A stretch of 40,036 nt of DNA from a virus, in IMG/VR virus record IMGVR_UViG_3300036780_000075, positions 1 through 40,036 of that record; one strand, written 5' to 3'. The notes beneath the pieces were generated by a model. That model searched no databases, had not been told where the DNA came from, and saw only the letters and a list, made by a program, of their open reading frames with translations. The translations under genes and the position numbers were made by a program. Positions 13,326 through 34,984 of the stretch are shown piece by piece. Numbering within the stretch: position 1 is the stretch's first letter; every line of letters begins with the position of its first letter.

Positions 13326-13352
13326 CCCAGGCAAATTTTTCAGGGGCAGGCA

Positions 13353-13387
13353 GGGCTCCCGGTCGCCGGCTAGCGAGCCAGGGAGAT
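13353..13387 (+). repeat. Hairpin repeat copy 1
   Basis: Starts GGGCTCCC and ends GGGAGAT. Arms CTCCC/GGGAG and GG-TCGC/GCGA-g-CC-a pair around a GGCTA-containing loop. It lies just before the ribosome site (GGAGAGGA) of the next gene, so the 3' arm is about 10 bases from the start codon. Confidence 0.8.
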
Positions 13388-13398
13388 TGGAGAGGAAA

Positions 13399-13758
13399 AT
13401 GGCAAATCAAGTTCGCAAGGTCCGGCTCACGCGTTCGATCGTGATGAGCGGTAAGCACGCAGAAGAGGGCTCAGTGTTTGAGTGTCCCGCGCCGCTCGCG
13501 CAGCGGCTCGTGGGAGAGGGCTCGGCTGAATATCACGAGGATCACGCGGATCAAGTCGCCGCGGAGAACAAGCTCGGAGTCACCGTTCACTCGGCGCACA
13601 ACGACGATCCGCAGCCACGCAAAATAAGCGACGGGCCGAAGCCGAGAGCTACCCAAGCCGAAGGTGACGATCAGGACGACGACGATACCGACGGCAAGGG
13701 CTCGGGCAAAGGGTCCGGCAAAGACAAATCCGGCTCGAAAGCAAAATCCGGAAGTTAG
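13399..13758 (+). CDS. Small head-region protein with low-complexity C-terminus
   Basis: 119 aa from ATG 13399 (GGAGAGGA 5 bases upstream); the frame also opens at TTG 13387. The N-terminal 50 residues (VRKVRLTRSIVMSGKHAEEGSVFECPAPLAQRLVGEGSAEYH) follow the small barrel pattern of short proteins encoded after phage capsid genes. The remainder is acidic, then a Gly/Ser/Lys tail (GKGSGKGSGK...). The exact role is unknown; a capsid decoration or head-tail role is inferred from position. Confidence 0.7.
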   Translation: MANQVRKVRLTRSIVMSGKHAEEGSVFECPAPLAQRLVGEGSAEYHEDHADQVAAENKLGVTVHSAHNDDPQPRKISDGPKPRATQAEGDDQDDDDTDGKGSGKGSGKDKSGSKAKSGS

Positions 13759-13761
13759 CCT

Positions 13762-14328
13762 GTGCCGATTCCCTCGAGCGCCGCGGCGTTCGGCGACGGA
13801 GACATTCCTGCGTTGATGGCGGATATGGCCATCGCCATCACCGTAGGCACCGTCGCAGGAGTAGGCCTGCTCGACGAAGCGGATCGGATCCTGGTTCAGG
13901 ACGAGGAGCGCGGCCAGGTCGAAGTCCTGGCCACCACGCTCACCGTTCAGACGTCGGCTTTCCCCGCGGCCGCGATCGGCCAGTCCGTCGCGATCGGCGC
14001 GCGGAATTTCACGGTCCGCGATCGCGCGCGCATTGCCGACGGCGGGCTCACAAAGCTGGTGCTCAGCCTGGTCACAGTCCCGAGCTATCAGCCCTCGAAC
14101 CTGCCGCAATTCGCCTTCGCGGATGGCGAGACGCCGGCCGGCGTCGTCAACGGCGTAAACGTCACTTTCACCCTGGCGCAAGCACCGAATCCCGCCGCCT
14201 CACTGATTCTCGTGATGAACGGAAGCGTGCTGCAAGAGGGCGAAGACTACACGCTTTCCGGCGGCACAATCACTTTTCTCACGGCCCCCATGACGGGAGC
14301 GCAGCTCGAAGCCTGGTATCGCTACTAA
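13762..14328 (+). CDS. Head-tail joining protein with C-terminal fibre module
   Basis: 188 aa from GTG 13762. Residues 1-112 (DIPALMADMAIAIT...GLLDEADRILVQDEE...VRDRARIADGGLTKLVLS) resemble small phage head-tail joining or tail-attachment proteins. Residues 118-188 form a separate module: FADGETPAGVVNGVNVTFTL, NGSVLQEGEDYTLSGGTITF and a final AWYRY. The same module is the C-terminus of the next gene, and a shorter version is inside the tail tube protein. Such add-on modules probably decorate the virion surface. Confidence 0.65.
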   Translation: MPIPSSAAAFGDGDIPALMADMAIAITVGTVAGVGLLDEADRILVQDEERGQVEVLATTLTVQTSAFPAAAIGQSVAIGARNFTVRDRARIADGGLTKLVLSLVTVPSYQPSNLPQFAFADGETPAGVVNGVNVTFTLAQAPNPAASLILVMNGSVLQEGEDYTLSGGTITFLTAPMTGAQLEAWYRY

Positions 14329-14338
14329 GGAGCTCACG

Positions 14339-15025
14339 ATGAAATTCCTCGACCACCTCGGACGGCCTATCTACGCAGCGCCGAAGCACCGCGCCGCATT
14401 TTGGAGATCGATCCATCCGACGCTGGGCGCGGCGATTATTTTCTTCGGCCTTATAGGCGTGATGGGCGCGGCCACACAGCTCAACCTGGCCACGCAGGTG
14501 AAGGGAATCCTGGCGATCGCCAACGGCGGCACGGGAACCGGTTCGACTCTCACCGGTCTCGTTCGCGGAAGTGCTTCCGCGATGACCGCTGCGGAATTGT
14601 CCGGAGACGTGAGCACCAGCGGATCGAACGCGGTTACGGTAGCAAAAATAAATGGCACCTCGATCCCGACGAACTCCGCGGCGGACCAGCTTCCGGTGAC
14701 GACGGCTTCCGCTACCGCGGCCTGGGCCACAATTCCGAACTGCACGGGCGCGCTCGCCTACTCCACGTCCACGCACACTTTTTCGTGCAACACCATTTTG
14801 ACCGGCACATTCGCGGACGCCGAGACTCCATCCGGATCGATTAACAGTTCGAACGTCACGTTCACTCTGGCACACACACCGAATCCTGGCGGAGATCTGC
14901 AGCTCTACGTGAACGGGCAGCAGATGATCGCCGGCGGCGCCGATTACACTCTCGCAACCGCGACGATCACGATGGTTTCTGCCCCGAAGACGGGCGACGT
15001 GCTCACCGCGTTTTACCGTTACTGA
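14339..15025 (+). CDS. Membrane-anchor/fibre protein 1 (signal-anchor, NGGTG repeat, C-terminal module)
   Basis: 228 aa. ATG 14339 is preceded by GGAGCT. After a basic start, a hydrophobic segment (AAIIFFGLIGVMGAA, about residues 31-45) runs into TQLNLATQVKGILAIANGGTG, a motif typical of phage tail fibres and collar fibres. The middle is Ser/Thr/Ala-rich. The last 70 residues are the FADAETP...NVTFTL...DYTL...FYRY module shared with the previous gene. A hydrophobic N-terminal segment on a fibre protein is unexpected: it may be a true membrane anchor, or a hydrophobic capsid-insertion segment. Paralogous to the next gene over the first half. Confidence 0.65.
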   Translation: MKFLDHLGRPIYAAPKHRAAFWRSIHPTLGAAIIFFGLIGVMGAATQLNLATQVKGILAIANGGTGTGSTLTGLVRGSASAMTAAELSGDVSTSGSNAVTVAKINGTSIPTNSAADQLPVTTASATAAWATIPNCTGALAYSTSTHTFSCNTILTGTFADAETPSGSINSSNVTFTLAHTPNPGGDLQLYVNGQQMIAGGADYTLATATITMVSAPKTGDVLTAFYRY

Positions 15026-15031
15026 TGGGCG

Positions 15032-15592
15032 ATGAAGAAAAAATCATGGGCTCTTCCCATCGCTGCGGCTCTGGCGCTTCTGCTGGTGGCCGCTGCCACG
15101 CAAATCAATCTCGCGACGCAGGTGAAGGGCATTCTCGGCGTCTCGAATGGCGGGACGGGAAACTCGAGCGGCCAGGCCACTCTGACGTTTCTAGAAAACC
15201 AGATCGGCTCGGCCGTCACTCTCGGCACAAGCAGCTACACAGCGAGTTCGGGCACGTTCCCGGCCGTGACGACCAGCACCGCGGGAACATGGCTCGTCGA
15301 AGCCTCGCTCAATTTGCAGACCACCAGCACGGCTTCCGCGGTGAATTTCAGTTGCGAGATTTTCGACGGGACCGCCGTCCTAGCCTCCGGCTACGCGGTA
15401 GCACCGGCTCTCTCGAGCGCGGCGGTTAGAAACCTGCAGATATCGATCGTGGGAAGCAAGGTCGAAGGCGGCACGGTGACATTCACCGCGCGTTGCACCT
15501 CGACCACGGCCTCGCAATTGATGGAGCCGGCCGCTGCGAACAACAGCGGCGGAAACAACGCCTCAACGATTTCGGCGATACGGATCCAGTGA
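15032..15592 (+). CDS. Membrane-anchor/fibre protein 2 (signal peptide, NGGTG repeat)
   Basis: 186 aa. Begins MKKKSW then a hydrophobic stretch (ALPIAAALALLLVAAA), a textbook signal peptide. TQINLATQVKGILGVSNGGTG follows, the same motif as in protein 1, and then a beta-rich C-terminus with two Cys (FSCEIFDG, ARCTST) and Asn/Ser repeats. The second member of a tandem pair with a diverged C-terminal head. Whether it is secreted by the infected host or carried on the virion cannot be told from sequence. Confidence 0.65.
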   Translation: MKKKSWALPIAAALALLLVAAATQINLATQVKGILGVSNGGTGNSSGQATLTFLENQIGSAVTLGTSSYTASSGTFPAVTTSTAGTWLVEASLNLQTTSTASAVNFSCEIFDGTAVLASGYAVAPALSSAAVRNLQISIVGSKVEGGTVTFTARCTSTTASQLMEPAAANNSGGNNASTISAIRIQ

Positions 15593-15595
15593 TCG

Positions 15596-16084
15596 ATGCC
15601 CCTTCCTCCGCTGAATTCATCAATCCGTCTGCAGATCATCGCAGCGGTAGCAGCAGCGCTCGGAGCCGCGAGTGTCGGAGGCTTCGCAGCGCCGACCGGC
15701 CTGACCATTTTCCGCGAGCGCACGCGGCCGATCGAAACGGATTCTCTGCCCAGCATCTTCCCGTACTTCGAGGATGACGAGCCGCGGCCGTTCGATAAGC
15801 AGCAATTCCGCTCTCCTCTGCTCGAGCGACATCTCGCGATCGCGTTCGAATGCCGCGCGCAAGGGTCCGGATCCATCACTCCGGACCAGGCTCTCGATCC
15901 GATTCTGGTCTGGGCGGTGAGGGGCGGCTTCGTCGATGAGACTTTCGGCGGACTCGCGATCGGCGTCACCGAAGGACGTACCGCTTGGAAATCGCGCGAG
16001 GCTGATGTGCCGATCGCCGCGGCCACTTTGCATTTCACGATTCACTACCGGACGAGCAGGCTCGATCCGACTTCGAAGACTTAG
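15596..16084 (+). CDS. Tail terminator-like minor tail protein
   Basis: 162 aa from ATG 15596. SIRLQIIAAVAAALGAA at the start is an amphipathic helix, followed by FRERTRPIETDSLPSIFPYFEDDEP, LERHLAIAFECRAQG and PIAAATLHFTIHYRTS. This alpha-beta pattern and its position, between head-completion genes and the tail tube gene, fit the lambda gpU-like tail terminators. The stop is immediately followed by an inverted hairpin-repeat copy. Confidence 0.65.
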   Translation: MPLPPLNSSIRLQIIAAVAAALGAASVGGFAAPTGLTIFRERTRPIETDSLPSIFPYFEDDEPRPFDKQQFRSPLLERHLAIAFECRAQGSGSITPDQALDPILVWAVRGGFVDETFGGLAIGVTEGRTAWKSREADVPIAAATLHFTIHYRTSRLDPTSKT

Positions 16085-16119
16085 TCCCGCAGGCTCGACT
16101 CGCCGTCGACGCTGCGGGA
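16085..16119 (-). repeat. Hairpin repeat copy 2 (inverted orientation)
   Basis: Begins directly after the preceding stop. Read on the minus strand it is TCCCGCAG-CG-TCGAC-GGCGA-GTCGA-GC-CTGCGGGA: the same core and loop class as the other copies, but with a different outer stem that still pairs perfectly over 8 bp. It lies 40 bases before the tail tube start. Confidence 0.75.
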
Positions 16120-16158
16120 TTTGCGGGGCGCGAGCCCTAGCGCAAAAGGAGAATCACA

Positions 16159-16986
16159 ATGGCAATCCAGTATCCGATCGGCCACAAACCGATGCTGGGA
16201 AAAGGCTCGGTCCTGTTTGACCGCTTCGATGCGAACGGAAATCCGACCGGCAATTTCCTGCACCTCGGCAACTGCAGCAAGTTCGAGCTCGACCCGAAGG
16301 ACGACATCGCCGAGCTGTACCAATCGCTTTATCCCACGCCGACGCTGATCGCGACGGCCGTGAAGAAACGCCAGCCGAAGCTGCAGATCGAAGGGACGGA
16401 CTTCAACTCCGATCACCTGGCGATCGGGCAGATTTCAGCGGGACGCACCGAGCTGGCCACCACAGCGACGACGTTCACGGCAGAAGTTCTCGTTTCCGTC
16501 GCGCAGGCCGCCAACGCAAAGGGCCGCTTCTTCCGTCTGGCCAACATGAACGTCGACAACGTCACCACGCCGCCCGTCCTAACGCAGAACGCAGTCGTGC
16601 TTGTGGCCGGGACGGATTACACAGTGGCGGATGCGCTGAACGGGCTCATCTATTTCCCGAGCTCTTCGTCGATCGATGGCACGCACGCAATCACGGCGAC
16701 CTACCACACTCTGGTCGGAACTTTTGACCAGGTGGCTGCTCTCACGCAGAACTCTATCTCGGGCCACTTCCTCTTCGTCCCCGATCCGGCGGACGGCGAG
16801 AAGATCGGCTGTGACGTGTGGCGCGTGAATCTGTTCGTCAACGGCAAGATCGGCTTGATCGCGGACGACTACGGCAACTGGACGCTCGAGGGCTACATCC
16901 TCGACGACACCGCGAATCATCCGACATCGCCGTTCTACCTGTACACGTACCAATCCGCTGCGCCCGCTGCCGGCGCCGCCGAGTAA
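16159..16986 (+). CDS. Major tail tube protein
   Basis: 275 aa; AAAGGAG lies 8 bases before ATG 16159. N-terminal GKGSVLFDRFDANGNPTGNFLHLGNCSKFELDPKDD and C-terminal GCDVWRVNLFVNGKIGLIADDYGNWTLEGYILDD are typical of phage tail tube proteins. The stretch about 136-185 (LTQNAVVLVAGTDYTVADALNGLIYFPSSSSIDGTHAITATYH) resembles a shortened copy of the fibre module in the head genes and probably projects from the tube surface. It forms stacked hexamers around the tape measure. Confidence 0.85.
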   Translation: MAIQYPIGHKPMLGKGSVLFDRFDANGNPTGNFLHLGNCSKFELDPKDDIAELYQSLYPTPTLIATAVKKRQPKLQIEGTDFNSDHLAIGQISAGRTELATTATTFTAEVLVSVAQAANAKGRFFRLANMNVDNVTTPPVLTQNAVVLVAGTDYTVADALNGLIYFPSSSSIDGTHAITATYHTLVGTFDQVAALTQNSISGHFLFVPDPADGEKIGCDVWRVNLFVNGKIGLIADDYGNWTLEGYILDDTANHPTSPFYLYTYQSAAPAAGAAE

Positions 16987-16992
16987 ACATTT

Positions 16993-17030
16993 CGCTCCGA
17001 GCATCCCTTGCCGGGAGCCTCGGAGCGTTC
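16993..17030 (+). terminator. Stem-loop after the tail tube gene
   Basis: CGCTCCGAG...CTCGGAGCG (9 bp, 17-base loop with an inner CCC/GGG pairing), starting 7 bases after the stop, then TTCTAAAT. The stem is strong but the T tract is weak, so termination is likely partial. The gap goes on to 17172 with a second dyad (17095-17118, CGAGGG-GCCGGCGCCGGT-CCCTCG) and a third small one (CGAAATTTCG near 17124). Confidence 0.5.
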
Positions 17031-17172
17031 TAAATCCCCGCTGGCAAAGGCGGGGCCGTCGCCGTGCTCAGGCATGGGCCGCGCGACAAGGGAACGAGGG
17101 GCCGGCGCCGGTCCCTCGCTTCTCGAAATTTCGTCAGCTTCGTGCTGGCGCGAAGTCATCGGAGGCTAATCC

Positions 17173-17649
17173 GTGGAAAAAAGCTTCAAGCTTGACGGCC
17201 GCGAATTTCGCGGCGTCTCTCAATCCCTCACTGCAGCCCAGGATGATTACCTCCTGGCCCACCTAAGGCGATGCGGAGCCGTCGAAGCGCTCACCGATAT
17301 CGACGGCGTCCAGCGCTCCCAGGAAAATCGCGCAGAGCTTCTGCTCACGCAAATCATGCTCAGCGGCGAGACGTTTCGCGTGCTCGCCGGCTGCCTCACG
17401 GAAGTCGGAAAAAAATGGTCGCGAGAGGAGGCTGAGCGCAACGCTGCTGCCTTCATGGAGATCACCGATCGCGAAGAGAAGCTGCGCATTCGCGCCGCCC
17501 TGGTGAACTTCGTGATCGGTTTTTTTGTCTCCGGGGCGAAATCATCCGAGACTTCCCAGAAATCTTCGCCCCGCAAAAAAAAGGACCGCACTACAGAGAG
17601 CGCGGAGCCCGGGACCTCGGAGACTTCGCCCCCATCCTCCGCGAGCTAG
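17173..17649 (+). CDS. Tail assembly chaperone, unshifted product (gpG-like)
   Basis: 158 aa from GTG 17173, with GGAGG 7 bases upstream. The body (LTAAQDDYLLAHLRRCGAVEAL, then ENRAELLLTQIMLSG, KLRIRAALVNFVIGFFVSG) is helical as in small phage tail chaperones. The C-terminus is a low-complexity Ser/Lys/Glu tail, which is the part replaced on frameshifting. Lies directly upstream of the accessory block and tape measure. It binds the tape measure during tail assembly. Confidence 0.8.
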   Translation: MEKSFKLDGREFRGVSQSLTAAQDDYLLAHLRRCGAVEALTDIDGVQRSQENRAELLLTQIMLSGETFRVLAGCLTEVGKKWSREEAERNAAAFMEITDREEKLRIRAALVNFVIGFFVSGAKSSETSQKSSPRKKKDRTTESAEPGTSETSPPSSAS

Positions 17650-17870
17650 CAGGGAACGACCCGACCGACTTCGATCGGTTGATGGATTGGCCGCTCCGCG
17701 ACCTCTTCATCGCATTCGTAGAGCGGCTGAAGGACGCGGCGATCGAGCGGCATCGCGCTGAAGTGCTGATCTGGGCGGTCCTAGCGCCCTGGCAGAAGCA
17801 GCAGACGCGGCCGCCGGCGCTGCCGGCAATTCTCGCTCCGCCCAAACGGGGACCAGTCCGGCCTCGATGA
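17173..17870 (+). CDS. Tail assembly chaperone, -1 frameshift product (gpGT-like)
   Basis: Shares the first 403-410 bases with the shorter product, then slips back one base at the A8 run (17575-17582) and continues to TGA 17868-17870. The -1 frame after the run reads GPHYRERGARDLGDFAPILREL, then TDFDRLMDWPLRDLFIAFVERLKDAAIE, EVLIWAVLAPWQKQQ and a Pro-rich end. It is clearly protein-like, with no start of its own. This is the standard G/GT organisation of lambda-like tails. A start at TTG/ATG near 17679 would be an alternative but is less likely. Confidence 0.75.
17575..17583 (+). other. Programmed -1 ribosomal frameshift site
   Basis: Eight A residues followed by G give the heptamer A-AAA-AAG in the correct zero frame (codons AAA AAA AAG). 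This is the strongest known bacterial -1 slippery sequence, as in dnaX. The open -1 frame downstream gives the extended tail chaperone. Confidence 0.75.
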
Positions 17871-17884
17871 CGGCTTAGTAATGA

Positions 17885-17896
17885 CAACTTTTGTTG
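17885..17896. promoter_or_regulatory. Palindrome C, operator-like
   Basis: CAAC-TTTT-GTTG, a perfect dyad of the AC-N4-GT type in the 48-base gap after the tail chaperone, ending 22 bases before the ATG of the next gene. Confidence 0.4.
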
Positions 17897-17918
17897 ACAC
17901 TTCACGGAGGAACTAGAA

Positions 17919-18326
17919 ATGGCAATCACACTGACTTCCATCAAGAACGAATTCGGCCACGCGGCCGCGGACCTGGTCAAGGTAGGAAAGGCGATTAAGT
18001 CCGCGATCGGGCGGGCGGCCGCCGAAATGCCGACTCTCGTCGCGGATCTTCAAAAGGCGGCTCCCACGATCGAAGGCCTCACCGCGCTCGCAGCTCCGCA
18101 GTTCACGGCCGTCGAGCAGCTCGCTTTCAACGCGTTTGGCGTGATCGCAAACGCCGTGGAAGCCGCGGGCCCCGCCGCGGCCGCGAACGGAGTGAGTATC
18201 TCGCTCGATCAGGCGCTCATCAACGACATAAAAGCGATTCTGCCGTCGCTGAAGAGCTTCATGTCCAGCAACGCTTCGAGTGCTTCGGTCACGGCCGCCG
18301 CGCCTTCTCCTGCTGCGAAGTCCTGA
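17919..18326 (+). CDS. Accessory helical protein of unknown function
   Basis: 135 aa; GGAGG is 9 bases before the ATG. The whole protein is Ala-rich and helical (GHAAADLVKVGKAIKSAIGRAAAEM..., ALINDIKAILPSLKSFMSS) with an Ala/Ser/Pro tail. The ends of the helices are amphipathic, so membrane association or a coiled bundle is possible. First gene of a block inserted between the tail chaperone and the tape measure, where most siphoviruses have nothing. No family recognised. Confidence 0.65.
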   Translation: MAITLTSIKNEFGHAAADLVKVGKAIKSAIGRAAAEMPTLVADLQKAAPTIEGLTALAAPQFTAVEQLAFNAFGVIANAVEAAGPAAAANGVSISLDQALINDIKAILPSLKSFMSSNASSASVTAAAPSPAAKS

Positions 18327-18337
18327 GCCTGGTGAGA

Positions 18338-19051
18338 ATGGACCGGCTTCTGAAGGTTCTCGGGGTCGCGCGCGCGATCGCGGCGATCGCGGCCCTGGGA
18401 ATCCTGGCGCTGGCCGGCTGGGACCTGCATCTCGGGCTCGAGCAGCTCCGCGACAATCTCACACAGCTTCGCACCACGGGCACGTACCTGAATCAGATCC
18501 TGCCGATCGTGGGCGGCGCCGCGACAAACATCGAGAAGACTCTGCGCGAAGAGCGTGATGCTTCTCGGGACCAGCTCTCGCAATCCACCGCGGTGCTGAA
18601 GAATGTGAATGCGGCCGTCTCGCAGGCGAAAGAAGATCTCGTCGAGTTTCACGCACTGCTCGCGGGCCTCGGGAAAACAAACTCGACGCTGGACGCTGCG
18701 ATCGCAACACAGAGCAGGGAAGCGGTCGACACGGAAAAGCAGGCGCAAGCTTCTCTAGCAGATCTGCGCTCGGCGCTGCAGCAGGCGAATGCGGTCCTCG
18801 CGGACCTCGACCACGTGGCTGCGAATCCGGACCTACCGTCAATTACCAAACACCTCGACGACGCGATCGTCGAGGCAAATTCCGTGCTGAAGCACGTCGC
18901 CGGCGCCGCGGCTTCCGGGGAACGCGACATGCTGATGATCGAAACCAAGCTGCGCCAGGCGCTGAAGCCGGCAAGCCTGGCCAAGACGATTTTCGAGCGG
19001 GCCCTGGGGATTGCCGGACCGGCGGCACAGATCGCGGCAGCCGCAAAATGA
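18338..19051 (+). CDS. Membrane-anchored coiled-coil protein
   Basis: 237 aa from ATG 18338 (GTG 18332 is also in frame). One N-terminal transmembrane segment (AIAAIAALGILALAGW, about residues 14-30) is followed by a long helical coiled-coil domain (DNLTQLRTTGTYLNQILP, NVNAAVSQAKEDLVEFHALLAGLG, QASLADLRSALQQANAVLADL). The soluble part would be in the periplasm or cytoplasm depending on orientation. The family is unknown; the architecture fits envelope proteins that block injection or modify the cell surface. Overlaps a 31-codon frame by ATGA. Confidence 0.65.
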   Translation: MDRLLKVLGVARAIAAIAALGILALAGWDLHLGLEQLRDNLTQLRTTGTYLNQILPIVGGAATNIEKTLREERDASRDQLSQSTAVLKNVNAAVSQAKEDLVEFHALLAGLGKTNSTLDAAIATQSREAVDTEKQAQASLADLRSALQQANAVLADLDHVAANPDLPSITKHLDDAIVEANSVLKHVAGAAASGERDMLMIETKLRQALKPASLAKTIFERALGIAGPAAQIAAAAK

Positions 19052-19143
19052 GCATGAGCAGCGCACTGATGCGGTTTTTGCAGCGTGCCGATGCGGAAAG
19101 GGCTCCCAGGTCGACGGCTAGTCGAGCCTGGGAGATGGGTTAG
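19048..19143 (+). CDS. Possible 31-aa peptide ending in hairpin repeat
   Basis: ATGA overlap with the previous gene; reads MSMSSALMRFLQRADAER and then the hairpin-repeat sequence to TAG 19141. As in the endolysin, the repeat supplies the C-terminus. It may be real by coupling, or simply an open frame that runs into the element. Confidence 0.35.
   Translation: MSMSSALMRFLQRADAERAPRSTASRAWEMG
19100..19136 (+). repeat. Hairpin repeat copy 3
   Basis: CTCCCAGG-TCGAC-GGCTA-GTCGA-g-CCTGGGAG: a 13-bp stem interrupted only by one bulged G, with a GGCTA loop. It is the cleanest copy. Flanked by GGG on the left and AT on the right. It precedes the lipoprotein region. Confidence 0.85.
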
Positions 19144-19346
19144 AGTATCGGGACATGAACCTTCCGCCGCGGGCCCTGCAGGCCCTGGTGAACCTGAAAA
19201 AAGAACTACTCGATCGTGACAGCGCGGACATTGCCGCTGAAAATTTAACAGCACAGTCAAAATTTAACCGCCGCGTGAAGAATTCCGCGTCGGAATCTGG
19301 CCCGCGAATGCGCAACGCGCGATCGCGCGGGCGCCGAGTCCAACGA

Positions 19347-19667
19347 ATGTTTCAGCGCCGCGAATTTTGCTTAGCGTTTATCGCGCTCCTTCTACTCGCG
19401 GGGTGTGGCAAGCCCGAATGGACCGACGCTACCGTAGTGGGCAAAGCCTACTCGCCTGCCAGCACCAGTGTCGGGCCCGTCATCGGAGGCAAGGGCGGCG
19501 CTGTTGTCACAAGCACGTCCGAGGAGTACGTGCTGATTCTTCGCTACCCCGATGGCAGCGTCTATTCGCACGAAGTGGACGCGCAAACGTGGACCGAGTT
19601 CGAGAAAGGCGACAAGGTGCGGGCGCTCGTGGCGTGGTACGGAGTCAGGGAAATCACCAAGCAATGA
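19347..19667 (+). CDS. Predicted lipoprotein
   Basis: 106 aa from ATG 19347. The frame is open from ATG 19155, but the upstream 64 codons are basic and ordinary, and a signal peptide begins at 19347: MFQRREFCLA, FIALLLLAGC with lipobox LLAGC (Cys20). The mature part has a beta-rich domain (VVGKAYSPASTSVG, EEYVLILRYPDGSVYSHEVDAQTW, KVRALVAWYGVREI). Small lipoproteins carried by phages often block receptor or injection functions (as T5 Llp does); that role here is inference. Ends in an ATGA overlap. Confidence 0.7.
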   Translation: MFQRREFCLAFIALLLLAGCGKPEWTDATVVGKAYSPASTSVGPVIGGKGGAVVTSTSEEYVLILRYPDGSVYSHEVDAQTWTEFEKGDKVRALVAWYGVREITKQ

Positions 19668-19921
19668 AGATCCGCTGGGTCCTCATCCCACAGCACATGC
19701 TCGTCGCCATGTTCGAACGCGGCTATTCCTACCGCGTCGTCGATGGCGATCTGCCTGGCGACGTGCGTGTGCGCGAAGCCTACGTCGCGGGCGATTCGAT
19801 CTCGCTCCTCGTGGAGAGCGAATCCTTTACCGAAGTGCCCGACGGCAACGTTCCCGAAATTGTTCCGTCGATCGAGTTCATGCGCGATACGCGCGGCCGC
19901 TGCGGAGTGCTCCCTCACTAG
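19664..19921 (+). CDS. Small hypothetical protein before the tape measure
   Basis: 85 aa, ATGA overlap with the lipoprotein gene; starts MKIRWVLIPQHMLVAMF. The rest (YRVVDGDLPGDVRVREAYVAGDSISLLVESESF) is beta-rich. Not recognised. The next start has no clear ribosome site (TTAAATAGAATGG), unlike most genes here, so coupling or a leader-less signal is possible for the tape measure. Confidence 0.6.
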   Translation: MKIRWVLIPQHMLVAMFERGYSYRVVDGDLPGDVRVREAYVAGDSISLLVESESFTEVPDGNVPEIVPSIEFMRDTRGRCGVLPH

Positions 19922-19939
19922 TTTTTCTACTTAAATAGA

Positions 19940-24291: not shown

Positions 24292-24292
24292 G

Positions 24293-24460: not shown

Positions 24461-24466
24461 AACCTG

Positions 24467-28900: not shown

Positions 28901-29392
28901 GGGAAAACTCTGCACTTCAAGTTTCTGGCGTTCAATACCTTTGGAGACAATCCGGTCGCGCAGGCTGACGCGACGGACTACACCTACACACCTACAGGCT
29001 GCCCGGCCGCGCAGCAGAACCCAAACAACAATTACGTCAATACGCCGGCGGTCTCGCTCTCGCAGACCACTCCCACGAACGTCGCGATGGCGCAAACCAG
29101 CGTGCAGTTCCCATCGAACAAGGCGAACTATAACGCGCGCAATTTCACGATCCCGGACCCGGGCGGAACTCCGACGGTTTACTACGTGACGATTTACGAT
29201 CCGGCCGAGCTCGGCGATGAGGGGACCGGCACCGCGCTTACGCCATTCTGCGAGACCTCAAACGCGAAAGTCGGACAGCCGGGCTACACCTACATGGGCT
29301 TCATTCAGGCGACCGATCCCACGACGGACCCGCGCAATGTCGCGGGACCAGGCGGCTGGCCTCCGCCTCAGACTTTCCTGGTGGGACCATGA
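25916..29392 (+). CDS. Large tail-tip protein (gpJ/GTA 'megatron'-like)
   Basis: 1158 aa from GTG 25916, which overlaps the previous stop; the frame is open further upstream but that part overlaps the peptidase. The region LGNILDSDSLELTRTQCRANGLWGSVTMNQQKKAGDWIEEFLTCANAVAVWSGDVLKIRPRSE (about 560-620) is typical of the putative phage tail protein family that forms the central hub or tip. The C-terminal third is beta-rich with Gly/Thr repeats (fibronectin- or Ig-like). It directs adsorption and attaches the fibres encoded next. Confidence 0.8.
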   Translation: MSLGGQSRVKPTAFGTLMQASTYGMTIPTIHGTTQSNLLAIWAANLRQGKCLGKKGKSGGLKKKKTPPSYVENIDFLIGSNPIDGILQAWSNSKRYPLNFVSQRFNAGGASSLTITDAQFYAVIAVTMELDLSGTFNDYGSPGPSAYSLTASEYSLWNMAQHGPDLINSGSSRFFPFLYKWVPADLNVVTLLPAACLGRLALLGAPWNGFMNVYYAQLSQDIHHKSPISRFCLEFEPVLGDGDEFTGNFRGTSTPLSTQQILYPEYAGAGSPDIDLGTSETLPLIQVEVRGSNARYAPRGDADFVDMIEDTVKSGLLQVGAQLGLIQRGVNLNDLPGAVQKAFVQFIDPAIPVLRFDQANAVGDQLVAIGRFRYDATGGAPNVADVAGNTWVPVYGNNNEGIWTATAVAAPAGNEVTFTDDHGGSNFNADAFIVEMDPGSSVLDNSKVVSGTTPAGPASTVSASIAVTGEPTYILAVVFADTPVLPFTPPALWTNLFPQTNPPLNQTFLAYRIVAKDGAYSFTMKIDGGVNWTIALLAFKSAQPVPYPKALGNILDSDSLELTRTQCRANGLWGSVTMNQQKKAGDWIEEFLTCANAVAVWSGDVLKIRPRSEVSVAGNGVVYTAPTASGPVAVLKESDLIGNGTDPPVTIPRAPQVDSYSIEQVQFFDRNSDYAQSFVSEPLNGAIALFGPRTDQPNILPEIQDPAIARKILAIEVRRKNLLRNTPKFKMKANLFLLEAWDLITFDEPLLGISGTPVRFTSIAENDSYELECETEPYIWGLHSPDDLPVTSATPYLPTTGQDPGQVNDPIIFEPPARLSGQKNQGEIWLVVSGASSDYGGCLVLISTDGGASYNPVPGGGTILGNAVTGFTVGDWPIANDPDTTNDLSVDLTESLGTLASYAVSDEDNFVYPCYVAGGLTCVPYELMAYAVANLTAANKYTLKATGGGMNHLRRAVFAAPQVGVGVDHPTNSRFAFLSPSGIGIYKLPMDPLWIGKTLHFKFLAFNTFGDNPVAQADATDYTYTPTGCPAAQQNPNNNYVNTPAVSLSQTTPTNVAMAQTSVQFPSNKANYNARNFTIPDPGGTPTVYYVTIYDPAELGDEGTGTALTPFCETSNAKVGQPGYTYMGFIQATDPTTDPRNVAGPGGWPPPQTFLVGP

Positions 29393-29439
29393 AAACGATC
29401 CGTGAGATGGACCCATTGATGGTTTTGGTGAATCGATGA
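29389..29439 (+). CDS. Possible 16-aa coupled peptide
   Basis: ATGA overlaps the previous stop and its own stop overlaps the next ATG (ATGA). Reads MKTIREMDPLMVLVNR. It may be a relay for translational coupling between two genes rather than a functional peptide. Confidence 0.4.
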   Translation: MKTIREMDPLMVLVNR

Positions 29440-30227
29440 CGGCCGTTCCTTCCATCATCCGGCTGAACTCGACGCTTCCTGCGGCGCCGGCGGGATACGC
29501 GAACGTCAAGCCTCAGCACGATTCGAACTTTCCCGTCGACGACACGAGCTTCTACGCTCCGAATCTCGGTTTCGTCGATGCGCGCACCACCGTCACCGAG
29601 ACGATCCGCGACGCGTCACTCGGTAAGCTCGTCACGCTCACCAACGCGGCCGCGATCGCCGTCACCCTCGATTCCGCGCACGTGCCTGCTGGATTCATGT
29701 GTTTCGTTGCCGTTCTCGGCGCCGGCACCGGGACGCTCACGCCCTCGAGTGGAACGATCAGTTATGGCGGTGCGAGCTCCGCGAACCTGGCGCTAGCGGA
29801 GGGTGATGCATCGATTCTATTTTTTGACGGCGCGAACTGGGAAGCCGCCTCAATCGTCGGCGTTCCGGCCGTCATCGCGCTGATCTCCGCGAACGCTCCT
29901 CTCGTTATCGGATTCGTGATGGCCACGGGTGCGACAGGCACAAACGTCGGTCCCGACCTCATCGCGCCGCGCGCCGGATCGGTCACAAAATGCAAGGTGG
30001 TGACGAAGGCGTCGGACCCTTCGACGGACCTCACCTTCAAAATCAAGCAGAACGGCACGGATGTGTTCAGCGCAGATCCCACCGTCGCGCACGGAACCGC
30101 CGGCGGGACGGTCTCGACTTTCACCACACTGACTTCGTCTCCGCTCGCGATCGCGGCCGATGATGTGTTCACCATCGACGTCACGAGCGGGACGTCAACC
30201 TGGCAGTTCACCGCTCAATTGGAGTAA
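29436..30227 (+). CDS. Tail fibre / receptor-binding protein candidate
   Basis: 263 aa, beta-rich. The middle has Ser/Thr/Gly-rich strands (GAGTGTLTPSSGTISYGGAS) and the C-terminus (AGSVTKCKVVTKASDPSTDLTFKIKQNGTDVF, TIDVTSGTSTWQFTAQLE) looks like a fibre knob. N-terminal NFPVDDTSFYAPNLG probably attaches to the tail hub. Function is from position plus composition. Confidence 0.6.
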   Translation: MTAVPSIIRLNSTLPAAPAGYANVKPQHDSNFPVDDTSFYAPNLGFVDARTTVTETIRDASLGKLVTLTNAAAIAVTLDSAHVPAGFMCFVAVLGAGTGTLTPSSGTISYGGASSANLALAEGDASILFFDGANWEAASIVGVPAVIALISANAPLVIGFVMATGATGTNVGPDLIAPRAGSVTKCKVVTKASDPSTDLTFKIKQNGTDVFSADPTVAHGTAGGTVSTFTTLTSSPLAIAADDVFTIDVTSGTSTWQFTAQLE

Positions 30228-30230
30228 TCG

Positions 30231-31142
30231 ATGTCGACGCAGCAACTGCAGCTCGTTTGTGACAGCTCGACGCTGGCAAATTTCAAGGCATGGGCGAAGC
30301 CCATCAGCGACTGGTTTCGCACCTGTGGGTGGACCAACAGCTCCGATAGCGGGCAGGTGAATTGGGGGACCATCGCATCGCCTCCGGGGAGCGCCGCTTA
30401 CGTTTTCGATATTTTTCAGCCCGGCGACGGCCTCACAAACTTTTATATGAAGGTCGAGTACGGAAATTTGTCGGGCACCAACTGCCCGACCGTCCGGATC
30501 ACGATTGGACTCTCGACGAATGGTTCAGGGACGATCACCGGCACGTTTATCGGGCCGACTCCGTGTCCCATCACGAGTTTCACGGCACCGAGCACCTCGA
30601 CGCAGTTCGAGTGCGATTTTTCCGGCGACACGGGCCGCATGGGAATCATGATGTGGCGAAACGGAGGAAATAACTGCGGTCAGTTGTTTGCGGTCGAGCG
30701 GTCGCTGAATTCGAGCGGAGCCGCCACGAGCACGTACGTCACGCTCTGGACCGCAGGAACTTCTCTATCGAATCGGGCATGCAGTCAGCAGTCCTTGATG
30801 TTGGGAGGGGCGGGTGCAGGGCCAGGTGGCGCGCCGACACTCAACGGTAGCAATGGCTGGTCGGTTCGCATGAGCAACTGCGTCGTGAGTTCTGTTCAGG
30901 TCACAACGGGCTTCAATGGCGGCATTCCCTTTGATAACTGCGCGCCGAACGTCGGATTCTACGACTATCCGTCCACCGAGGTCGGCGCGATTGGTCCGAT
31001 CGATGCATCAGAGGGTGTCAGCTTCACGGTCACGGTTTACGGAAGCATACGGACATACATCCCCACCAAGCTTGTCGGTGCAGGCTTCGGACCTTTCAAC
31101 TCGGGAGCCCCGTTTGGTTTCATCTGCATGAGGTACGACTAG
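30231..31142 (+). CDS. Tail fibre-associated protein
   Basis: 303 aa. Short N-terminal FKAWAKPISDWFRTCGWTNSSDSGQVNWGTI, then a beta-rich, Cys-rich body (several Cys, for instance NCPTVR, TPCPIT, FECDF, NCVVSS). The family is not recognised, but the layout (short repeats, Asn/Ser/Thr/Gly) suits a surface protein. Starts four bases after the previous stop. Confidence 0.6.
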   Translation: MSTQQLQLVCDSSTLANFKAWAKPISDWFRTCGWTNSSDSGQVNWGTIASPPGSAAYVFDIFQPGDGLTNFYMKVEYGNLSGTNCPTVRITIGLSTNGSGTITGTFIGPTPCPITSFTAPSTSTQFECDFSGDTGRMGIMMWRNGGNNCGQLFAVERSLNSSGAATSTYVTLWTAGTSLSNRACSQQSLMLGGAGAGPGGAPTLNGSNGWSVRMSNCVVSSVQVTTGFNGGIPFDNCAPNVGFYDYPSTEVGAIGPIDASEGVSFTVTVYGSIRTYIPTKLVGAGFGPFNSGAPFGFICMRYD

Positions 31143-31544
31143 ATGCCGAACGTTCCGACTTCTTCCGCCTACATGAAGCCGGCGCCATTCGCGAACACAT
31201 CCGCGAAATCGCCGGCATATTTCATCGGTTCGTCGGGATTCCCCCCGATCCCGGTTGCGGCGGTGCTAAAAGGCGGGACCACCGGTAGCGCCTACTCCGA
31301 AACGATCTCTGGCGTGCTTGGCGTCGCGCCATACACGTTTGCCGTCACCTCCGGCGCGCTTCCCACCGGCACGACTTTGAACGGCAGCACTGGCGTGATT
31401 TCTGGCACGACCTCCGCTGCGGGAACCTTCACGTTCACGATCAAGGTCACCGACTCGACTGGCGCTTTTAACTCCTTCACATTCCAGATCACGATTGCGG
31501 CTCCGGCTGGCGGCGGCGCGACGAACTACGGCTTCGTGTCATGA
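31143..31544 (+). CDS. Ig-like (He_PIG) surface protein
   Basis: 133 aa. Residues about 41-122 give the He_PIG/cadherin-like pattern: GGTTGSAYSETISGV, PYTFAVTSGALPTGTTLNG, TGVISGTTSAAGTFTFTIKV and TDSTGAFNSFTF. These Ig-like modules occur on tail and capsid surface proteins and bind sugars weakly. N-terminal 40 residues probably attach to the fibre. Last structural gene before the lysis cassette. Confidence 0.75.
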   Translation: MPNVPTSSAYMKPAPFANTSAKSPAYFIGSSGFPPIPVAAVLKGGTTGSAYSETISGVLGVAPYTFAVTSGALPTGTTLNGSTGVISGTTSAAGTFTFTIKVTDSTGAFNSFTFQITIAAPAGGGATNYGFVS

Positions 31545-31571
31545 CGTGTCATGACACTCTTCGGATATGAT
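31535..31571 (+). promoter_or_regulatory. Promoter/operator candidate before lysis genes
   Basis: CGTGTCATGA is duplicated in tandem (31535-31554) and GTGTCATGACAC (31546-31557) is a perfect 12-bp palindrome. A -10-like TATGAT lies at 31566-31571 with ATGACG 19 bases upstream as a possible -35. This would start lysis transcription separately under control of a palindrome-binding factor. Confidence 0.4.
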
Positions 31572-31582
31572 GCAGTGCAACC

Positions 31583-31900
31583 GTGACAATTTCGCGGACG
31601 TGGGAGGTCGAGGACCTGGCGCGCGTCGCATACACCGCTTACGAACAAGCGGTGCGCGCCGCGCTTCCCGGGCACCAAGGAATCGACATGCCGCTCTTCA
31701 GCGAACTCTCGCCGAGCCTGCAGGAAGTGTGGCGCCACGTGGCCATTACCGTGTGGAGCGAGATCTGGACGAACTCGGCTCCGCCCATCGTCGCCCTTCC
31801 GATCGCTCCGCCGCCTTCGAACATCGGCGATCGCCGCGAGCTCCTTGCGCGGCTGCTCGAGAAGATGCGCGACGAAAAGCCTAAGCGGCTAAAAAAATGA
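31583..31900 (+). CDS. Hypothetical protein at start of lysis cassette
   Basis: 105 aa from GTG 31583. Helical N-terminal (EDLARVAYTAYEQAVRAALPG), middle VWRHVAITVWSEIWT, and a charged C-terminus (ELLARLLEKMRDEKPKRLKK). Not recognised; it looks cytosolic. Ends in ATGA with the next gene. Confidence 0.55.
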   Translation: MTISRTWEVEDLARVAYTAYEQAVRAALPGHQGIDMPLFSELSPSLQEVWRHVAITVWSEIWTNSAPPIVALPIAPPPSNIGDRRELLARLLEKMRDEKPKRLKK

Positions 31901-32178
31901 ACGTGCGAATCGAGCAAGAGGAGACCCCTGAAGGGCGCGTAGCGGCGGCCGCGCGCGTCACGATGATGCGCTCTGTCCAGGAGGGTAGGCGCAGAGGCCT
32001 GCGGATCGACGAGACACTCCTTCCCGACTACGCGGACTTGCGCGAAGGCATTCGCGAAGCGCTGCGGCGCGAGCTGCTCATCGCCGAGCTCGAGGGCTTG
32101 TCCCAGGGATCCGAAAAGGCGCGCAGCCGGCGCCGCGACGAAATCCTCCGCGAGCTCGCGCCGAAGCCCGAAAGCTGA
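31897..32178 (+). CDS. Small charged protein
   Basis: 93 aa, ATGA overlap on the left and one-base overlap on the right. Highly charged, helical (LREGIREALRRELLIAELEGL, EKARSRRRDEILREL). No motif recognised; a role in regulating lysis or binding nucleic acid is possible but unproven. Confidence 0.55.
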   Translation: MNVRIEQEETPEGRVAAAARVTMMRSVQEGRRRGLRIDETLLPDYADLREGIREALRRELLIAELEGLSQGSEKARSRRRDEILRELAPKPES

Positions 32179-32420
32179 TGCCGAAAATTTCTCCTGAGCT
32201 CTTGGTTTTCCTCACCACGGTTATCTTCTTCGCCGGGGTTGGCTGGGGCGCTTTGTTACGACTTCAGCGGGATGTGAAATCGAAGGCTGAGCGCTCCGAT
32301 CTCAACAATATCGGCGCGATGCTGCGCCGCGATCGCTGGAACATAATGATCGCTTTGATGCTGGTCACGGACAGCCGCGACGACCGCCAGCGCCTAGCGG
32401 ATCTCCTCAGACAGCAGTGA
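32178..32420 (+). CDS. Small membrane protein, possible holin
   Basis: 80 aa. One N-terminal transmembrane segment (LLVFLTTVIFFAGVGWGALL, about residues 8-27) and a charged cytosolic tail (RDRWNIMIALMLVTDSRDDRQRLADLLRQQ). Size and position before an endolysin fit a class III (one-TM) holin or an antiholin. Confidence 0.5.
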   Translation: MPKISPELLVFLTTVIFFAGVGWGALLRLQRDVKSKAERSDLNNIGAMLRRDRWNIMIALMLVTDSRDDRQRLADLLRQQ

Positions 32421-32439
32421 CGCAAGTGCATCAAACTGC

Positions 32440-32646
32440 ATGAACTCTAAAATTCCGTGGGACGAGTACTCGAATCTCACGCGCGAAAGAACTCCCGCTC
32501 CGCCGACACGCAAGATCGAAATCTCCGAGCCCTCGATCGGCGCGCAGCTCTGCGAATTCGTCGCACGCCACTGGATCCTCGCAACTCTCGCCGTTCTCGG
32601 TTTTCTTGCGGCCGTCGCGGCGGCGATCGCGATCCTCACAAAATAA
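32440..32646 (+). CDS. Small C-terminally anchored membrane protein, possible holin
   Basis: 68 aa. A hydrophilic N-terminus followed by one transmembrane segment at the C-terminus (HWILATLAVLGFLAAVAAAIAIL). It directly precedes the endolysin (two bases), the usual place for the holin. Which of the two membrane proteins forms the lesion cannot be told from sequence. Confidence 0.55.
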   Translation: MNSKIPWDEYSNLTRERTPAPPTRKIEISEPSIGAQLCEFVARHWILATLAVLGFLAAVAAAIAILTK

Positions 32647-32647
32647 A

Positions 32648-33247
32648 ATGAACTTCGCTCTCTCGCCGGAGGCGATCTCCGGGATTCTCGGACCCTACGG
32701 CCCGATCGTGAACGTGCGCGCGAATTGGCCGGCCTTGGAAGCGGCGCTCGATCGCCGCGGAATCTATTCGGAGATGACGGCCGTTTCAGCGATCGCGACG
32801 ATCGGCGTAGAGACCGGAACCTTCGCACCGGTGAAGGAACGAGGCGGTCCGACCTATCTCACCGATCTTTACGAAGGTCGCGTCGATCTCGGCAACAACG
32901 TGGTCGGCGATGGCGTGCGCTTCCGCGGCCGCGGCTTCGTCCAGATTACCGGCCGCTGGGACTATGAGCATTTCGGCAAGGAGCTCGGTCGGGATCTCGC
33001 CGGCAATCCGGACCTGGCGCTCGACCCACAAATCGCTTCGGAGATCCTCGCGCTCTTTTTTCAGGAGCGGGGAATTCCCGCTTATGCCGACGTGCGCAAC
33101 TGGCAAATGGTGCGCCGGCGCGTGAACGGCGGCCTGTCCGGATGGCCACGCTTCATCGACTCCGTCACAAAGCTCCTGGCCGCGCTCGAGCAAAGCAGGG
33201 CTCCCAGCGTCGCCGGTGAGGCGAGGCTGGGAGATCGTTTCCCGTGA
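32648..33247 (+). CDS. Endolysin, GH19 chitinase/lysozyme-like
   Basis: 199 aa from ATG 32648. The GH19-like fold is shown by AVSAIATIGVETGTFAPVKE (catalytic Glu candidates E55 and E64), then RFRGRGFVQITGRWDYEHFGKELGRDLAGNPDLALDPQIASEILALFF (about 91-140). It cuts the glycan backbone of the cell wall. The last 17 codons are supplied by a hairpin-repeat copy, so the protein end (SRAPSVAGEARLGDRFP) is repeat-derived. No signal peptide is visible, consistent with release through a holin. Confidence 0.85.
   Translation: MNFALSPEAISGILGPYGPIVNVRANWPALEAALDRRGIYSEMTAVSAIATIGVETGTFAPVKERGGPTYLTDLYEGRVDLGNNVVGDGVRFRGRGFVQITGRWDYEHFGKELGRDLAGNPDLALDPQIASEILALFFQERGIPAYADVRNWQMVRRRVNGGLSGWPRFIDSVTKLLAALEQSRAPSVAGEARLGDRFP
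33198..33235 (+). repeat. Hairpin repeat copy 4 (inside the end of the endolysin gene)
   Basis: CTCCCAGCG-TCGCC-GGTGA-GGCGA-GGCTGGGAG. Here the inner stem is TCGCC/GGCGA and the outer stem CTCCCAG/CTGGGAG. Both differ from other copies yet pair, which argues for selection on the fold. It ends 12 bases before the gene stop. Confidence 0.8.
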
Positions 33248-33377
33248 AACGCTTCCTCCAGTCATACAACACAATTGTAATTTTCAATTTACAGGTACAC
33301 TGGCGCGGGCCCCGGCGCACGGCAAGGGGAAGGCAGAGACTGCATCCCGCGACAAAAACGCTGATGGCGCTCGGATA

Positions 33378-33415
33378 GGGCTCCCGGTGTCGACGGTCAG
33401 TCGAGTCCGGGAGAT
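33378..33415 (+). repeat. Hairpin repeat copy 5
   Basis: CTCCCGGTG-TCGAC-GGTCA-GTCGA-GTCCGGGAG. Inner stem TCGAC/GTCGA with a GGTCA loop, a 2x2 internal loop, and outer stem CTCCCGG/CCGGGAG. Lies in non-coding DNA about 145 bases after copy 4, same orientation. Confidence 0.85.
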
Positions 33416-33543
33416 TAAAGCGGCGGTGAATCGAGACGGAGGAACTCGCGCAGTTTCTTTCACGCCGGGGCCTGTGCAAAGTTTTCCTCTGTTTTGACAG
33501 GCTTTTCCACAGTCCTGCCACTCTCTCCCACTTCGAAACTAGG

Positions 33544-33563
33544 CCCTAACCCCGCCCGCCCCC
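33544..33563 (-). other. G-quadruplex motif
   Basis: On the minus strand: G5-C-G3-C-G4-TTA-G3. Four G runs with loops of 1, 1 and 3 bases are predicted to give a very stable quadruplex. It lies about 40 bases upstream of the promoter -35 box at 33602. Confidence 0.65.
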
Positions 33564-33601
33564 TCTCGCCACTCTGAAAGATTTCCACTCTCCCCCTCAT
33601 C

Positions 33602-33630
33602 TTGACGGTCCGTAGCTGGTCGCTTACAAC
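33602..33630 (+). promoter_or_regulatory. sigma70-like promoter
   Basis: TTGACG, a 17-base spacer and TACAAC, ending 83 bases before the DUF559 nuclease start. -35 matches 5 of 6 and -10 matches 4 of 6 consensus bases. It would transcribe the nuclease and recombinase genes. Confidence 0.5.
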
Positions 33631-33712
33631 CCCTACTGAAGTGCGGTTTAGAAGATGCTCCCCCTCAATCACGACGACGGCGGAGCGGTTTCAAAACCGA
33701 AAGGCGAAAACC

Positions 33713-34114
33713 ATGCGAAACGTGGCTCAAGTGCAATCGGCCGGCGAATCTCCGCGCTGGCTCCCGGCGGACCAGCGCGCCAGGGAGATGAGGGAGAGTG
33801 TGTCGCCGGAGGAGTTCGCGCTGTGGCGGGAACTACGCGGAAAAAACCTCGGCGCGAAGTTTCGCAGGAAGCACGTGGTGCTTCGCTTCTTCGACCGGCG
33901 AACCGGCAGCGTCGGCGGCTACATCTGCGATCTCTATTGCCCGAGCGCCAAGCTCGCCGTTGAAGTGGACGAGTCACCCATCGTACCAGGCTCACTGCGC
34001 CGCGACGCTGTTCTCTCCCGGCATGGAATCCGCCTGCTACGTTTCACGCGCGCGGAGATCTCCTCCGATCGCGCTGGAGTTCTCCACAAAATCAAACAAG
34101 CCCTCGCCAGCTAG
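33713..34114 (+). CDS. DUF559 endonuclease-like protein (Vsr-related)
   Basis: 133 aa from ATG 33713, AAAGG upstream. The DUF559 pattern is clear: AREMRESVSPEEFALWRELRGKNLGAKFRRKHVV, then GYICDLYCPSAKLAVEVDESP, and RRDAVLSRHGIRLLRFTRAEISSD. The D/E of ICDLYC and VEVDES would form the PD-(D/E)xK-type active site. The family is related to very-short-patch-repair endonucleases. Its role in phages is unknown. Its N-terminal codons contain a diverged hairpin-repeat copy (33759-33789). Confidence 0.8.
   Translation: MRNVAQVQSAGESPRWLPADQRAREMRESVSPEEFALWRELRGKNLGAKFRRKHVVLRFFDRRTGSVGGYICDLYCPSAKLAVEVDESPIVPGSLRRDAVLSRHGIRLLRFTRAEISSDRAGVLHKIKQALAS
33759..33789 (+). repeat. Diverged hairpin repeat, candidate copy 7
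   Basis: CTCCCGG...GCCAGGGAGAT shares both ends with copy 1 (7 and 11 identical bases) but lacks the TCGAC/GTCGA core. Inside the DUF559 coding sequence, where the ARExR residues are conserved in the family anyway, so it may be chance. Confidence 0.35.
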
Positions 34115-34125
34115 TACTTTCGTAC
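34114..34125. promoter_or_regulatory. Palindrome D, operator-like
   Basis: GTAC-TTTC-GTAC, a perfect dyad containing ACTTTCGT, at the end of the nuclease gene (its first base is the last of the stop codon) and 85 bases before the recombinase start. The remaining gap is GC-rich with CGCGC runs and no gene. Confidence 0.45.
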
Positions 34126-34209
34126 CACGCAAGAACGGCAATAGCGGCGCGGGCACGCGCGAATTTTCGGCGCCGCGCGCCGGGAAGGGAATCACGCAGC
34201 ATTGCAAGC

Positions 34210-34827
34210 ATGGATCACCTCACCCGCGAACAAGTCGTCGAGGTGCTGGCCCGGGCGAAAGCCTCGAGCGATCGCGATTGGGTGCTCCTCCTGGTCTCTT
34301 TCTGGCACGGACTGCGCGCCAGCGAAGCGGTGAACCTGACGCCGGCAAACTTCAAGGGCGGCCGCCTGGTGATTCAGCGGCTGAAAGGCTCAGAGAAAAC
34401 CAAGCAGCGCCTCGTCGAGAACGCCGATCCGCTCCTCAACGAGCGCGCGGCCGTCGAGGCTTTTCTCGAGAGACACAAAAAACTGCACGCCGGCGACGGC
34501 GACGGTCAGCGCCTCTTCGAGATCTCCCGCTTCGCTTTCTATCGCTTGATGCAGCGCTACGGCCGCGCCGCGGGAATTCCTTCTGATCTCTGCCATCCGC
34601 ATGTGCTGAAGCACTCGATCGCGATGCAGACAATCAAACCGGCAGGGATCGAGAACGTCCGCGCCTACCTGGGCCACAAATCGATCGCGTCGACGGGGGA
34701 ATACCTCAAAGTGAGCGACGAGGCCGCCTGCGACGCCGTGGCGAGTGCTGAGAGGCGCAGGAAGCCTTCCGGGCAATCCAGCCTGGCCTTCGGCGATCCG
34801 GAAGAGGACCAGGACGAGCGGAGCTAG
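34210..34827 (+). CDS. Minimal tyrosine recombinase (FimB/Xer-like catalytic domain only)
   Basis: 205 aa from ATG 34210. Catalytic residues by motif: Arg36 (GLRASEAVNL), Lys59 (RLKGSE), His131 in HPHVLKHSI, His156 (LGHKSIAS), Tyr165 (TGEYLKVS). The usual second Arg of HxxR is Lys134 here. There is no N-terminal arm or core-binding domain, so the protein is the size of FimB/FimE invertases and not of typical integrases (about 350-400 aa). It may integrate the phage with helper proteins or invert DNA. C-terminus is acidic. Neighbours: DUF559 nuclease upstream, hairpin repeat copy 6 downstream. Confidence 0.85.
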   Translation: MDHLTREQVVEVLARAKASSDRDWVLLLVSFWHGLRASEAVNLTPANFKGGRLVIQRLKGSEKTKQRLVENADPLLNERAAVEAFLERHKKLHAGDGDGQRLFEISRFAFYRLMQRYGRAAGIPSDLCHPHVLKHSIAMQTIKPAGIENVRAYLGHKSIASTGEYLKVSDEAACDAVASAERRRKPSGQSSLAFGDPEEDQDERS

Positions 34828-34852
34828 CCGCACAATTCCTAGAAATGTGCGG
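34828..34852. terminator. Stem-loop directly after the recombinase
   Basis: CCGCACA...TGTGCGG (7 bp, inner TT/AA pairs, loop around CCTAG) starts right after the stop. There is no T tract, so it is either a weak terminator or part of a recombination or attachment site. No phage attachment site could be identified with confidence. Confidence 0.4.
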
Positions 34853-34887
34853 GACAGACATGGCCATATATGCGCACAACTGCTCCG

Positions 34888-34899
34888 CTACTTTCGTAG
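34888..34899. promoter_or_regulatory. Palindrome E, operator-like
   Basis: CTAC-TTTC-GTAG, containing ACTTTCGT, between the recombinase and hairpin repeat copy 6, followed by a -10-like TAAGAT (34900-34905) without a clear -35. Confidence 0.45.
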
Positions 34900-34917
34900 T
34901 AAGATTCGCGCGCAATG

Positions 34918-34955
34918 GGGCTCCCGGCGTCGACGGCAAGTCGAGCCCGGGGGAT
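34918..34955 (+). repeat. Hairpin repeat copy 6
   Basis: CTCCCGGCG-TCGAC-GGCAA-GTCGA-GCCCGGGGG: same core, GGCAA loop, outer stem CTCCCGG with CCGGGGG (one T-G wobble). It ends 30 bases before the start of the next gene. Confidence 0.8.
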
Positions 34956-34984
34956 CAACCCCAAATCTCGACTGAGGAGGCTCT

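Follow-up and report, generated by a model that had tools for sequence, protein, structure and literature searches.

Most known cases of mobile palindromes lying in frame in working proteins come from Rickettsia and from some families of REP repeats. The Rickettsia palindromic elements (RPE; Ogata et al.) are palindromes of 105-146 bp that lie in frame in Rickettsia genes and include copies in the genes for tmRNA and RNase P (PMC2229807). REP repeats with CGTC or GTAG tags, RPE-4 and RPE-6 among them, are hairpins of 20-40 bp, some of which reside in coding genes, and the CGTC families are without a dedicated transposase (PMC3733652). MITEs such as Correia/NEMIS and ERIC measure 100-200 bp and mostly have TA-type termini and target-site duplications (PMC2229807). 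TnpA-REP is described in PMC8266576.

The hairpins described here are very probably copies of a non-autonomous mobile palindromic element of ~42 nt, resident in one order of the Terriglobia and moved into a phage. In behaviour the element works much like RPE, a likeness that carries no claim of kinship with the RPE families. Both are short mobile palindromes found between genes, in frame in conserved protein genes and inside RNA genes, and neither has an assigned transposase or a defined target-site duplication. RPE are reported from Rickettsia, with a length of 105-146 bp (PMC2229807), whereas the present element belongs to Acidobacteriota and their phages and differs further in that three sense frames are in use, its inner stem covaries and it has inserted into the aptamer of a riboswitch. 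REP repeats are likewise small hairpins that sometimes occupy coding genes (PMC3733652), but the present element lacks a GTAG or CGTC foot, inverted dimers and RAYT flanks, and its stem of 12-13 bp, with a bulged G and a GGNNA loop, is longer than the 8-9 bp of the CGTC families. It resembles the MITEs in being non-autonomous and able to reside in frame in genes, yet it is far shorter and shows no clear duplication. Rfam returned nothing above threshold for the window (the whole stretch of DNA analysed, 40,036 nt) or for the target region. The sequence-only reading knew of no named element of this kind, and within Rfam and the literature searched no described family matches. Another such family, in a large soil phylum, with six copies in one phage and with sites available in both the empty and the occupied state, offers a way to test how these palindromes move.

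Six copies in a phage genome

The window looks like a complete phage record; its 40,036 bases include a direct terminal repeat of 127 bases and the packaging, head and tail genes of a tailed phage. Among named phages it has no near match. Six hairpins had been picked out from its sequence, and all are present where they were placed. Scores are those of R2, a covariance model made from bacterial copies only, with zero phage sequence.

Copy 1, 13350..13390, + strand: in the gap that follows the major head protein gene, immediately upstream of the next gene's ribosome-binding region (40.8 bits, E 1.2e-11)
Copy 2, 16081..16124, - strand: in the gap separating one gene's stop codon from the ribosome-binding site of the major tail protein gene (32.1 bits, E 1e-8)
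Copy 3, 19097..19139, + strand: intergenic, the nearest of the six to the family consensus (67.8 bits, E 8e-21)
Copy 4, 33195..33238, + strand: in-frame C-terminus (...ALEQSRAPSVAGEARLGDRFP*) of a GH19-type endolysin gene (51.3 bits; translation; Pfam PF00182)
Copy 5, 33375..33418, + strand: within a fragment of a bacterial rsmH gene (55.5 bits; empty-site alignment; rsmH identity)
Copy 6, 34915..34958, + strand: intergenic, downstream of the tyrosine recombinase gene and upstream of a small gene whose start is at 34985 (58.4 bits)

R2 thus recovers all six, with E = 8e-21 to 1e-8. A candidate seventh copy at 33759 scored E 0.02 to 0.12 and looks like chance. Five of the hairpins open with GGGCTCCC, and four of these finish GGGAGAT, the 34918 copy finishing GGGGGAT; the inverted copy at 16085 retains only the inner core and the outer stem CCCGCAG/CTGCGGG. 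The core TCGMC-N5-GKCGA ascribed to the whole set describes the copies well except that at 13353, which reads TCGCC GGCTA GCGA and has an inner arm one base short. A constant feature beyond that description is a bulged G on the 3' side, following the inner arm. It also holds that every copy lies in a gap between genes or supplies a gene end, the 33198 copy providing the last ~16 residues of the endolysin. When folded against dinucleotide shuffles, five of the six beat nearly all of them (z -2.7 to -5.4) and copy 1 did not (z -0.9).

With six copies in 40 kb the phage is ~27 times as dense in the element as the richest of the bacterial genomes examined (P about 1.5e-7 if densities were equal), a figure inflated by selection because the window was picked for its repeats. 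This density fits a recent invasion but also a phage function. The phage copies, mostly intergenic, probably do little.

Structure and covariation

The family consensus is ANA GGG CTCCCAGG TCGAC GGNNA GTCGA G CCTGGGAG ATC, folding into a stem of 12-13 bp with a bulged G and a GGNNA loop. In an alignment of 113 distinct copies fitted to this structure, both sides change in nine of the 13 pairs, compensatory cells number 120 as against 31 in shuffles, and the covariation score of 0.280 (0.116 in shuffles) was matched by none of 500 shuffles. A MAFFT alignment, which is not structure-fitted, gave seven of 13 pairs with 97.6% of cells paired and again 0/500 shuffles, and when the pairing partners were slid as a control, paired cells fell from 95% to 24-53%. 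The palindrome is kept up by compensatory change, under selection on pairing, and the earlier observation of covarying arms was right. The inner stem occurs as TCGAC/GTCGA, TCCCC/GGGGA, TCCAC/GTGGA and GGCCAC/GTGGC and in a longer TCGTCCGCC form, while the loop keeps its GG..A edge and the element its bulged G and GGG...GAT ends. No T-run follows the copies on their 3' side, where GAT(C)A/G stands instead.

Two longer forms were seen. One is a subfamily whose inner stem is 12 nt longer (TCGTCCGCC-N9-GGCGGACGA; loci L217, L218, L219, L223, L224 and L245) and whose in-gene copies still have a net length divisible by three. The other, GGGGCCGCCCAGGTCGACGG..AGTCGAGCCTGGGGAAGAGGCCACGAAGTGGCCGG, is a longer relative that these bacteria also contain (L150, L152, L160, L161, L167, L174 and L180), often with the short element nested in its loop.

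Distribution in bacteria and phages

When 84,980 species genomes were scanned for the core pattern, some two dozen true copies came out, almost all of them in assemblies of Acidobacteriota (labelled Ca. Acidiferrales, Terriglobia or Acidobacteria) and on several contigs per genome; the other matches were single chance matches without the 3' half. A first covariance model, made from 38 copies, found 1-22 copies in each of nine carrier genomes, the top figure being approximate. Within one Acidobacteriota order 18 of 95 genomes have family matches, with 1 to about 22 copies apiece, and within the class 20 of 299 do. Weakly matching genomes (single matches, E about 1e-5) may owe their copies to chance. 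In a sample of 347 genomes from across the phylum, the query genome was the only one to match. All these genomes are incomplete assemblies, the E-values are rough and the taxon labels are the titles of records. The family is not specific to phages but is scattered through soil Acidobacteria, in the order of Ca. Acidiferrales (Terriglobia).

Six kinds of phage contig carry the element: the window, L020, L034, L025 (with its near relative L028/L140), L136 and L301. A loose DNA pattern gave 36 matches in viral contigs, most of them chance, the real ones being only L020, L025/L028 and L034. A prophage in a genome of the same order has a head protein 64% identical to that of the window, and this match, together with the rsmH fragment, supports a host for the phage within that Acidobacteriota order.

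Copies that lie close together are direct in all 16 pairs, with none inverted. Tandem copies 42-43 nt apart occur in the RHS-like proteins of L153 and L257. Related terminase-like genes in two carrier genomes (L216, L244 and L214) hold or adjoin copies, two or three in tandem in L244.

It had been proposed that the hairpins are RNA control elements or antitermination signals. A cis-acting RNA signal of the phage, selected at gene boundaries as an antitermination signal like put/boxB, a processing site or a translation enhancer, would suit the stable hairpins with covarying arms, the placing of five of the six phage copies on the sense strand and the position of several copies just 5' of start codons (copy 1 of the window; L020, L034, L128 and L165). 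However, 37 portal-related phage loci contain zero copies, so that no position is conserved in related phages, the same family resides in bacterial coding genes, riboswitches and repeats, and the want of a T-run after the hairpins means that they are not intrinsic terminators. The proposal is not supported, and such a signal is improbable.

Empty and occupied sites

Comparison of relatives shows gain or loss of the element. In acyl-CoA dehydrogenase genes two genomes are occupied at the same site by copies with different inner stems, for net gains of +42 and +51 nt, and nine orthologues are empty. Two genomes have a longer palindromic repeat in its empty form (TTTTCTTGATCGTGACACAAGGAG), and in others it is occupied, at two different positions. 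Copy 5 of the window adds a net +42 nt to its rsmH fragment when set against empty homologues in phages L042 and L301, the target reading GGATA^GCGGTG. Of the sister phages L020 and L034 (82.6% identity), one has between two genes a 46-nt copy that is missing from the other, and both genes are still open. Copy 1 is missing from the syntenic relatives L042, L044 and L055, and copy 2 from seven relatives of the window. Net gains at the empty sites run from 42 to 51 nt, with the element ends placeable approximately and not to the base.

These sites bear on two further explanations. GC-rich genomes are expected to hold many hairpins, and loose-pattern matches in unrelated viruses and bacteria are mostly chance, which would favour chance palindromes or convergent terminators; but clean empty sites and the E-values of the bacterial-only model, 8e-21 to 1e-8, already refute this reading, and it can be set aside with near certainty. 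Structured recombination sites for the phage tyrosine recombinase, similar to attC sites, had also been suggested, and a Phage_integrase gene does lie between copies 5 and 6. Yet many bacterial genomes hold lone copies inside genes, copies are single or in direct pairs in unrelated contexts with no cassette arrays, and gene order is unchanged in phages with empty sites. The suggestion finds no support and is most improbable. The third proposal, small mobile elements, is by contrast strongly supported by the dispersed bacterial copies, the clean empty sites and the in-frame insertions.

Residence in genes and riboswitches

In metB the in-frame element coincides exactly with a 13-residue gap in the comparison with PDB 7ba4; for acyl-CoA dehydrogenase the figure is 17 residues against PDB 4l1f. 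Further in-frame bacterial copies are found in an M42 peptidase (aminopeptidase), a DEAD helicase and an SLT transglycosylase; a DUF4097 protein has a copy after an apparent signal peptide, and copies adjoin or lie inside terminase-like and RHS-like proteins, the latter named from a reading of their sequence rather than from a Pfam match. All three sense frames are in use (GLPGRRxxEPGR, KGSQVDGxSSLGD and RAPRSTxSRAWEI). In the phage, the C-terminus of an endolysin is made of the mobile element.

The SAM riboswitch aptamer has accepted the mobile insert in its P4 loop. Five loci have an occupied loop, and four of the five lie upstream of metB:

L146:687-820, SAM riboswitch with a copy in the P4 loop
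L165:1175-1316, SAM riboswitch with a copy in the P4 loop
L237:1915-2056, SAM riboswitch with a copy in the P4 loop
L269:1916-2056, SAM riboswitch with a copy in the P4 loop
L182:1486-1628, SAM riboswitch with a copy in the P4 loop

The P4 loop contains 45-50 unaligned nt in four of these loci and 36 in L146, as against 9-15 in the Rfam consensus.

The element survives in genes because the frames used contain no stops, the net lengths that were measured (+42, +51) preserve the frame and its hairpin is self-contained, so that it is tolerated both in protein loops and in the loops of RNA hairpins. Every in-gene and riboswitch copy verified by homology is in the sense orientation, in a tally that was not blind, the gene calls coming from Pfam matches of selected open frames. 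Among the antisense open frames crossing copies that were scanned, no Pfam domain spans the element. Simple insertion does not account for the sense-only orientation of the verified in-gene copies.

Mobilisation

A REP element of a RAYT (Y1 transposase) system, the standard REPtron of these bacteria, would have the right size, hairpin form, imperfect stem and dispersal, and several of the genomes do have Y1 transposases. Its foot tags, however, are not clearly enriched (GTAG in 3 of 108, with 7.6 expected; CGTC in 13 of 108, with 8.2 expected), and the close pairs include no inverted, head-to-head ones. The 20 Y1 genes inspected have no copy within 1.5 kb of them, and four element-bearing genomes, all incomplete assemblies, gave no Y1 match. 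A REP origin is unlikely. Nor did a search for recurrent neighbour genes as a partner enzyme bring out a transposase, since only orthologous insertion sites and related phages recur.

Movement or selection at the level of RNA, by RNA-templated or transcript-coupled insertion of the 42-nt element with phages carrying it between hosts, is suggested because the verified in-gene and riboswitch copies are all sense and close pairs are always direct, and because compensatory change maintains the hairpin and the loops of other hairpins (P4 of the SAM riboswitch, other palindromes) are repeatedly the place of insertion. We regard this route as quite unlikely. For a mobile DNA palindrome resident in the bacteria, a host enzyme would act in trans on the folded single strand and copy the element to new sites. 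The features of the folded strand on which it might act are the conserved C-GGNNA-G loop, the 3' bulged G, the GGG foot and the GAT(C) tail. Single-strand transposition of the IS200/IS605 type would explain the recognition of a hairpin and the handling of a single strand, although no such enzyme is tied to the present copies.

The rsmH fragment and other features of the window

Two features flank or hold the copies at the right of the window:

33300..33470, + strand: fragment of an rsmH (16S rRNA methyltransferase, mraW) gene, the target of copy 5
34210-34824: Phage_integrase gene (Pfam), between copies 5 and 6

The rsmH fragment, ~130 nt, is bacterial and out of context; it is also present in phage contigs L042/L302/L304, L301, L303 and L305. 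The conserved stretch at 33300-33470 had been considered as an undescribed RNA, a candidate that was dropped when it proved to be rsmH. The core of the fragment recurs in 77 of 95 genomes of the order, almost always as a single occurrence. With the tyrosine recombinase gene 0.75 kb away, the fragment may be an attachment core, or it may be a remnant of recombination.

Elsewhere in the window, a 78-nt repeat at 14460-14537 and 15084-15161 (76% identity) suggests two duplicated adjacent genes, and a tandem GAAC repeat occupies 38707-38774. A PAP2-family phosphatase gene at 35342-36199 is on the minus strand, with its neighbours on the other strand. A predicted tRNA-Gly (tcc) at 1304-1377 overlaps a 588-aa open frame at 132-1898.
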